Positions 22,666-24,950 of a DNA stretch of 62,652 nucleotides are shown piece by piece (the first letter of the stretch is position 1; each line of letters begins with the position of its first letter). Made by a program: the position numbers and the translations under genes. Source of the DNA: an uncultured Lentisphaeria bacterium (GTDB lineage: Bacteria; Verrucomicrobiota; Lentisphaeria; Victivallales; UBA1829); the NCBI GenBank assembly GCA_949282305.1, contig CASDPB010000017.1, positions 1 to 62,652 of the forward strand, read 5' to 3'. Below the pieces are notes generated by a model, which was not told the origin of the DNA, ran no database searches, and was given only the letters and a program-made list of their open reading frames with translations.

Positions 22666-22713
22666 AAGATTCAGGAAACGATGGACGATCAATTATCTGA
22701 CAGGGCGGAGATT

Positions 22714-23277
22714 ATGAAAAGAATTCTGAAATGGTTCGGCGTCGCCGCAATTTATATCGGCGTTGCGGTTATTTTGATTTTGCTCATGCAGTATTTCTAT
22801 TTGAGTTCGGATTTTTTCAGATCGCTGTTTGAGGGCGGCGCTCTGCAGGCGGCTCCGGCGGAAGGGGCTTCGACTCCCGCATCGTCTTCCAATCTTACCG
22901 AAACCACGGCAAAACTTTCCTTTTATATTCTGATCTTCGTCATGCTGCTCCAGCTGTTCGCTTTCATCACTGCGCTGAGAGTTTTCCTGAATCTCGCGCA
23001 GAGCCGGGAATCTTATGAAATCCGGATGAAGAAAATGGAAAACGCGGATCTCTTCCTGGATCTGCCGCTTTATTTCGGACTTTTCGGCACGGTCTCCTCC
23101 TTCATCGTCATGTCCTTCAATCCGCAAATCAGCCGCCTGATCGCATATTCCTCCACGCTGGTCGGCATCATTTTCAGCGTGGTGCTGAGAGTGTCGCTTC
23201 AATATCCGATCAAGCAGAAACTGCTCGGGGAACGCATCAAAGACGACAACCTCAAGCTGGGAGACAGAGAACTGTGA
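22714..23277 (+). CDS. Four-helix membrane protein resembling a reduced MotA/TolQ/ExbB stator subunit
   Basis: Encodes 187 residues with hydrophobic helices at about 9-30, 68-90, 115-135 and 142-163. Helix 3 reads YFGLFGTVSSFIVMSF, which matches the LGLLGTVxGM pattern of TolQ/ExbB/MotA. Helix 4 (YSSTLVGIIFSVVLR) matches their second pore helix with its conserved Thr-x-x-Gly. The long cytoplasmic domain of MotA is reduced to about 25 residues between helices 2 and 3. The start at 22714 is chosen for GGAG five bases upstream; 22681 is an alternative adding 11 residues. The stop overlaps the next GTG start. The family is not one I recognise; the stator reading rests on pattern and partner. Confidence 0.6.
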   Translation: MKRILKWFGVAAIYIGVAVILILLMQYFYLSSDFFRSLFEGGALQAAPAEGASTPASSSNLTETTAKLSFYILIFVMLLQLFAFITALRVFLNLAQSRESYEIRMKKMENADLFLDLPLYFGLFGTVSSFIVMSFNPQISRLIAYSSTLVGIIFSVVLRVSLQYPIKQKLLGERIKDDNLKLGDREL

Positions 23278-24950
23278 ACCGGTCGATCCTGATAGTCATC
23301 TGCGATTTCCTGGTGCTGTCGGCAATGTCGCTGTCGATCGGCGTCGGAGAAATGGCTTCGACCCCGAAAGGCGGTGCGGTCATTTCACGCAGCGCGGCTC
23401 AGGACGCACATATCGAACAGATGCACAAGGTGCTGAAAAAACGCGCACAGGCGGAAACGGAAAAAGCAAAAGCGGAAGCCGAACTGGAATCCCTGCGCGC
23501 TCAGCTTGCCCAGCTCTCCGGCGATGTCGACAGCCGCACCTTGAAACTGAATGAGACCTCAAAAGAACTTCTGAACGCCCGGACAGCTCTCCGGGAACAG
23601 CAGAAGATGCTGAAAGACCGGGAAAAAGCGCTTGCGGACAAAACCAGCGCGCTGAAAGACGCGATCGCCGACATGGAAAACATTTCGGCAGAATATGCAA
23701 AAACGCGGCAGGAGCTTCAACAGTCAAGGGAGGAAATTGCCTCCAGAGACTCCGCGCTGAAACAGTCGAAAGAACATCTGGCGGCAGTTTCAGGCAAACT
23801 TCAGTCCGCGGAAAACAAACTCCGGAAGACGGAACTTGATCTCTCTTATACCAAAGGTTCACTGGGACGGGCGGAAAAAGAGCTGGCAGACGCCAGAGAC
23901 AAAGAGGAAGCCTCAGCAAAACGTCTTTATGTCCGCGGCATGGAGCTGGAACAGACAAAAGTGGAGCTGGCAAATACCAAGCAGCTCCTGAACGCGGCCG
24001 TCCGGAAATTCACTCTTGCACAAAAAGAGCTGGACAAGACAAAGAAGAATCTGGCAGACAGCGTTTCCCAGCTTTCCAGAACACGCGAAACCCTGTCAAA
24101 AGTCTCTGCGGAATCGAAAGCCAACGCCGAATCGCTGGCTTACACACGAAAACAACTGGTCAAAACGGAAGAGCTCCTGCGAAGCGATGCCCTCACAAAG
24201 TACTCCCAGGCGGCAGTGCAGGTGTCGTTTCATCTGAAGAATGAACGGTTCATGAACGATTTCGAGCTGAACGAAAATCTGTATCTGCCGGAAATTGAAA
24301 TCGGCGGAAAAACCTACCTTCCGGGAAGTTTCCGCGCTTTGACGGGACTGCTGAAGCAATATGCGGGATACACCAGGATCACGGAACTTGCATATCGCAT
24401 GAAAAAACCGGAAACATCCACGGCATTCCTTCCGGTCGCCGAATCGCTGTGGTCACTGAACAGTGACCCGCGCGCCTGTCTGATCGAGACGGCAGAACCG
24501 ATTGGAACTCCGCTGAAAGCAATTACTTATTCGGAGCTGAAAAAACGCGGGCTTCAGAATCTGACGCTGTTCAAATTCGGAAGTTTCGGCAAGGAGACCG
24601 CACCCCTGAACGGGCGCTGCTCCGTGGCACTCGGTCATGACGCCCCGTATCTCTACATCAGGAATTCACAGCGGAGCAGCAGCGAACTCCCCGCCTCCAT
24701 TGGCGATTTCGTCATTTCAAAAGAGGGGGAATTCATCGGTGTCGTCGTGAGCACGGCGGCAAAGGATCTGGAAGGATATGAAGAAGCCCTCTGCTACATC
24801 TTCCCCTCCGCGGTCAATCTGAAAGATGCCGTTGAACTGCCGCTGAACAGGAGGACGGGAGAAAAATATTACACCGGATTCACAAACGCACTGCAGAAAC
24901 TGCAGAAGACGGTCAGCGAACTCGACCGCAGGTATGAAGCGGACAATTGA
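23274..24950 (+). CDS. Single-pass coiled-coil protein with MotB/ExbD-like helix and a periplasmic C-terminal domain
   Basis: Encodes 558 residues from a GTG that overlaps the upstream stop (GTGA), so translation is coupled. Residues about 4-22 form one uncleaved hydrophobic helix with an Asp at position 11 (ILIVICDFLVLSAMSLSI), the position and context of the proton-carrying Asp in MotB, TolR and ExbD. Residues about 43-300 are a long heptad-rich coiled coil. Residues about 305-558 form a compact domain in which GDFVISKEGEFIGVVV resembles the trypsin-fold strand pair around the catalytic serine, but the GDSGG nucleophile motif is missing. No peptidoglycan-binding OmpA domain is present. Function unknown; partner of the preceding four-helix protein. 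Confidence 0.6.
   Translation: MNRSILIVICDFLVLSAMSLSIGVGEMASTPKGGAVISRSAAQDAHIEQMHKVLKKRAQAETEKAKAEAELESLRAQLAQLSGDVDSRTLKLNETSKELLNARTALREQQKMLKDREKALADKTSALKDAIADMENISAEYAKTRQELQQSREEIASRDSALKQSKEHLAAVSGKLQSAENKLRKTELDLSYTKGSLGRAEKELADARDKEEASAKRLYVRGMELEQTKVELANTKQLLNAAVRKFTLAQKELDKTKKNLADSVSQLSRTRETLSKVSAESKANAESLAYTRKQLVKTEELLRSDALTKYSQAAVQVSFHLKNERFMNDFELNENLYLPEIEIGGKTYLPGSFRALTGLLKQYAGYTRITELAYRMKKPETSTAFLPVAESLWSLNSDPRACLIETAEPIGTPLKAITYSELKKRGLQNLTLFKFGSFGKETAPLNGRCSVALGHDAPYLYIRNSQRSSSELPASIGDFVISKEGEFIGVVVSTAAKDLEGYEEALCYIFPSAVNLKDAVELPLNRRTGEKYYTGFTNALQKLQKTVSELDRRYEADN

Follow-up and report, generated by a model that had tools for sequence, protein, structure and literature searches.

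Gene pair at the locus

Two overlapping genes lie on the forward strand of the window, by which the whole analysed stretch of 62,652 nucleotides is meant, and all features described below are on the same strand. Named relatives place the window in the Victivallales (Lentisphaeria; phylum Verrucomicrobiota in GTDB). Gene A (22714..23277) starts with ATG, ends with TGA and encodes a four-helix, stator-A-like membrane protein of 187 aa, whereas the product of gene B (23274..24950), which starts with GTG, is 558 aa long and consists of a single helix, a coiled coil and an HtrA-like C-terminal domain. GGAG stands immediately 5' of the gene A ATG, at 22707-22710. The two coupled reading frames described in an earlier note on this DNA were both found at these coordinates, with GTGA as a 4-bp overlap common to the end of gene A and the start of gene B. 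The pair is flanked on the left by a divergent ABC-transporter permease gene and on the right by a radical SAM gene that starts 150 bases 3'.

The scans against Pfam, NCBIfam and PADLOC gave no credible family match for gene A or gene B, only coiled-coil or chance matches, with those of gene B stemming from its coil. No stator was matched when sequence profiles of the pair were compared with PDB chains, and no published description of the A/B pair was found in literature searches. Four clear MotA_ExbB matches are located elsewhere in the same genome (contigs C35, C116, C131 and C110), indicating that the pair is not the only stator-like system of this genome.

Membrane helices and their likeness to known stators

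The AlphaFold2 model of the gene A protein, based on a 39-row alignment, showed four long helices (mean pLDDT 86.9), and the distribution of charges suggests an N-in/C-in topology. Both the four-helix architecture and the GLFGTV and Thr-x-x-Gly patterns pointed out in the earlier note are seen in this model and in the sequence. Conservation is maximal on A helices 3 and 4 and on the B helix that bears the Asp, which is the pattern expected of a stator pore. Helix 3 (residues 117-133; 23062..23112) carries PLYFGLFGTV, of which GLFGTV is residues 122-127, and has the lowest entropy in the protein (0.59 bits); the helix 4 core (residues 137-165; 23122..23208) carries AYSSTLVGI, containing ST148xxG151, at 0.79 bits, compared with 2.4 and 1.9 bits for helices 1 and 2, respectively. 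Among the positions of A without variation in the order are P118, L119, Y120, G122, G125, T126, A144, Y145, T148, G151 and P165, so that each of the two putative pore-lining helices bears an invariant threonine, T126 or T148; the latter is replaced by Asn in one distant clade. In distant loci, gene A is either short, as in the window, or long, with an extra N-terminal domain. In the long versions, of 550-600 aa (L132, L133, L139-L150 and L265-L284), the stator-like core is preceded by one additional N-terminal helix and by a domain of ~320 residues.

The transmembrane helix of gene B (residues 4-24, SILIVICDFLVLSAMSLSIGV; 23283..23345) belongs to the most conserved part of the protein, the N-terminal helix MNRSILIVICDFLVLSAMSLSIG, with 0.71 bits versus 2.2-2.5 bits for most of the rest. 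C10, D11, F12 and V14 do not vary within the order, and Asp11 (codon GAT, 23304..23306) is the candidate ion-carrying carboxylate. The single N-terminal helix bearing Asp11, as read in the earlier note, agrees with both the reading frame and the AlphaFold2 model. Conservation of this residue, a check that the earlier note had proposed, was observed in every locus examined, that is, in 140/140 loci (partly from the same genomes) and in 20/20 further loci of other classes, where the helix reads MRRSILIVMLDVMVLSVLAL or MNKTLLLVICDFLLLSLLAL and the Asp is always kept. In the clade with Asn in place of A T148, B has Asn or Thr at residue 16, five positions past the Asp, a residue that is Ser in most of the other distant loci. 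A T148N and B S16N/T are found together in one family of another class (L146-L150 and L265-L279); this co-change hints at a contact between A and B and, being seen in a single clade, is suggestive only.

The pore-helix motifs of A, PLYxGLFGTV and STxxG, match those of ExbB/TolQ; at the equivalent positions, the ExbB/TolQ proteins from the same genomes as A have PLLGLLGTV and TTAAGL. A scan of 1.9 Mb of DNA with a two-helix motif, chosen after the fact, matched only gene A and ExbB/TolQ-type genes. The hhalign comparison of the A profile with ExbB paired GLFGTV with GLLGTV and T148 with the Thr region of TM3 (P 0.0014-0.0042). The score of the ExbB profile, 28.9, is modestly above that of block-shuffled controls (mean 22.0, s.d. 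5.9, maximum 33.6), indicating that most of the signal comes from the GLFGTV block; as a null these controls are poor, since the GLLGTV block survives in them. Foldseek placed PomA, TolQ and ExbB chains at ranks 1-4, 6-11 and 14, with PomA best and with 15 of the first 30 matches from these proteins, and the same matches are weak, with E values of 0.16-0.6, TM-scores of 0.2-0.3 and poor superposition. Neither member of the pair scored above the cut-off of Pfam MotA_ExbB (PF01618), for which true members in the same genomes exceed 100 bits, and by the Pfam model A is not a member of this family. The likeness to MotA and ExbB drawn in the earlier note is thus weakly favored as homology by the profile P values (0.001-0.004) and the good Foldseek ranks, but not by the E values of at least 0.16 and the TM-scores. 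Given these E values, the poor superposition and the shuffled controls, A is called stator-like and not a proven MotA_ExbB homologue.

ExbBD and TolQR depend on three essential residues, an Asp in the B helix and two Thr in A helices; in ExbBD these are Asp25, Thr148 and Thr181 (PMC12905483). For GldLM, too, an established 5:2 motor, there is no obvious sequence homology to MotAB (PMC9389320). The pair resembles ExbBD/TolQR in the GLLGTV and ST/TTxxG pore helices, in the Asp within a single N-in helix of B and in the arrangement as an A-B gene pair, whereas its A has four helices with a short cytoplasmic loop and no Pfam-level match, and its B extends into a coil of 257 residues with a head of the HtrA fold. 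With MotAB/PomAB it shares the four-helix N-in/C-in topology predicted for A and a D-F pair in the B helix, but the cytoplasmic loop between helices 2 and 3 is much shorter than that of MotA, and B has the HtrA fold instead of an OmpA-like peptidoglycan-binding domain.

These comparisons bear on two readings that overlap in part. The pair is likely an unnamed ion-driven stator-like motor. It might instead belong to the ExbBD/TolQR (generic ion transporter) lineage as a highly divergent member, in which B swapped its small periplasmic domain for the coil and the HtrA-fold head, and would then act via Ton- or Tol-like transducers. The pore-helix motifs are indeed most like those of ExbB/TolQ, and A of the far relatives has an extra N-terminal domain, a feature also described for ExbB-type A subunits (PMC12505986). 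We nevertheless consider this lineage assignment unlikely, as A has four helices and not three, Pfam-level homology is absent, no transducer gene was seen beside the pair, and the genome already holds its four clear MotA_ExbB matches.

Periplasmic coil, HtrA-like head and linked kinase

The coiled coil of B, predicted to be periplasmic (residues 39-302; 23388..24179), has a low-confidence hinge at residues 201-220. In the AlphaFold2 model of B, the N-terminal helix is followed by coil helices at residues 39-200 and 221-302 and then by a beta-rich domain. A 3.5-residue period along the coil of ~257 residues beat 1000/1000 shuffles, which confirms the coiled coil of about 260 residues claimed earlier. 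G195, just before the predicted hinge, is nearly invariant in homologues.

The C-terminal domain (residues 303-530; 24180..24863) was compared with PDB folds, and the top 50 matches were all HtrA/Deg proteins (best E 1.2e-5, probability 1.00). The hhalign comparison with HtrA was weak (P 0.064; GDFVISKEGEFIGV aligned with GGPLLNIxGxVIGV), and the assignment of the HtrA fold therefore rests on the fold search. In the register taken from this hhalign alignment, the segment of B aligned with GNSGGPL reads xxGDxV, and the position of the catalytic Ser, before GD, is occupied by V, P, I, R and others (I476 in the window), with Ser in 2/51 sequences, indicating a non-catalytic HtrA-like domain according to the predicted fold. 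The "degenerate trypsin fold" of the earlier note is accordingly specified as an HtrA/Deg fold that lacks a conserved catalytic Ser. The domain shares the chymotrypsin/HtrA double-barrel fold with the HtrA/Deg serine proteases and differs from them not only in the missing Ser but also in its membrane anchor and coil, and no PDZ domain was seen.

A gene encoding a transmembrane Ser/Thr kinase is located 3' of gene B in 48 of the best 80 loci of the collection-wide scan, mainly in Victivallaceae and usually within 60 bases of the gene B end (farther off in L207, 1 of the 48). Examples are L183:10199-12673 and L225:10295-12910, and an ABC-F gene is often next. Neither in the window nor in its genus is a close relative of this kinase adjacent to the pair. 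The description of the pair as a self-contained operon thus holds in the window, but not in the many Victivallales with the kinase as a third gene directly 3'. The linkage suggests a regulated envelope function in these relatives, the kinase not being part of the window locus. Three of the four kinase copies scanned contain a PorK-like FGE-sulfatase domain after the kinase part. In the T9SS, the PorLM motor works together with PorK, whose fold is a repurposed FGE fold (PMC12421860). The pair is like GldLM/PorLM, the T9SS motor, in the long periplasmic shaft of B and in the FGE-fold domain encoded next door in many Victivallales (compare PorK/GldK), and unlike it in having four helices in A versus two in GldL, an HtrA-like head on B and the FGE domain on a kinase.

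The head and the kinase could also fit a complex that is not a motor, in which A would be a membrane scaffold and B an anchored pseudoprotease serving as sensor or chaperone, held by a buried Asp-Thr/Ser contact with no ion flux. HtrA-fold domains sense misfolded proteins, as is established for DegS-type proteins, buried charges can serve assembly alone, and a kinase is linked in relatives. The conserved Thr126, Thr148, Pro and Gly on two helices of A, together with Asp11 of B, copy the pattern of proton motors, which a scaffold would not need, and a sensor or chaperone of this kind is therefore judged improbable.

Distribution and proposed motor

Gene A was present in 62/100 related genomes and was mostly all-or-none per genus, being found in 4/4, 13/13, 7/7 and 19/19 genomes of four genera, where the pair is single copy, and in zero genomes of several genera of the same family. 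At the scale of the phylum, gene A was matched in 100/289 genomes, 96 of these at E < 1e-10, and the matches include several families in other classes. Co-occurrence of the two genes, which the earlier note had suggested surveying, was strict at the order level, with gene B adjoining gene A in 40/40 loci (gene B is cut short in L040, and the contig ends within gene B in L067), and gene B is likewise 3' of gene A in the distant loci of other classes. The pair was also found in a cultured species, Victivallis vadensis DSM 14823 (L233; its contig is also that of L063). Pairing and an invariant Asp11 across the 40 order-level loci make the observation more than chance, and the distribution is typical of a cell function maintained by vertical descent, not of a defence island.

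An anti-phage role like that of Zorya, raised in the earlier note and prompted by ZorAB being a 5:2 motor with long extensions (PMC11890865), is highly improbable and was rejected, because PADLOC, including its ZorA/ZorB models, matched neither gene A nor the flanking genes and gene B only through its coil, no defence-gene neighbourhood was found, and carriage is genus-wide, single-copy and core-like. The likeness to ZorAB lies in a long extension and in the 5:2-type motor core proposed for the pair; the extension of the pair is periplasmic and on B, whereas that of ZorAB is cytoplasmic and on A.

The pair probably represents a new family of ion-driven motors of the 5:2 type. In the mechanism that we propose, several copies of A, presumably five, would form a ring in the membrane with helices 3 and 4 lining its pore, and the N-terminal helices of two copies of B would sit in this pore. 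As in MotAB, ExbBD and TolQR, the A ring would turn step by step against the B axle, powered by Asp11 of B gaining and losing a proton while facing Thr126 and Thr148 of A. The coiled coil in the periplasm, at most ~38 nm long when fully stretched, would pass this motion on to two non-catalytic heads of the HtrA fold, and these may bind a periplasmic peptide or protein or one located at the outer membrane. For this motor, we infer the pentamer-dimer assembly, the ion flux, the rotation, the binding by the heads and the target alike. The chances are roughly even that an axle with pseudoprotease heads represents an undescribed class of rotary motor of the Verrucomicrobiota, in which the flow of protons would, across the periplasm, move or load an HtrA fold that binds peptides, with control in some lineages by the co-encoded transmembrane kinase and its PorK-like FGE domain.

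To our knowledge, the known motors of the 5:2 type are few, namely MotAB, ExbBD, TolQR, AglRQS, GldLM and ZorAB. If the proposal is true, the pair would add a new branch to the small rotary-motor family behind swimming, gliding and outer-membrane transport. A further family across several classes of the phylum, missed by Pfam and terminating in a protease fold that lacks the catalytic serine, would point to a new kind of motor output and would provide an independent test of the residues needed by the mechanism, and the invariant Asp11, Thr126 and Thr148 make the pair directly testable.
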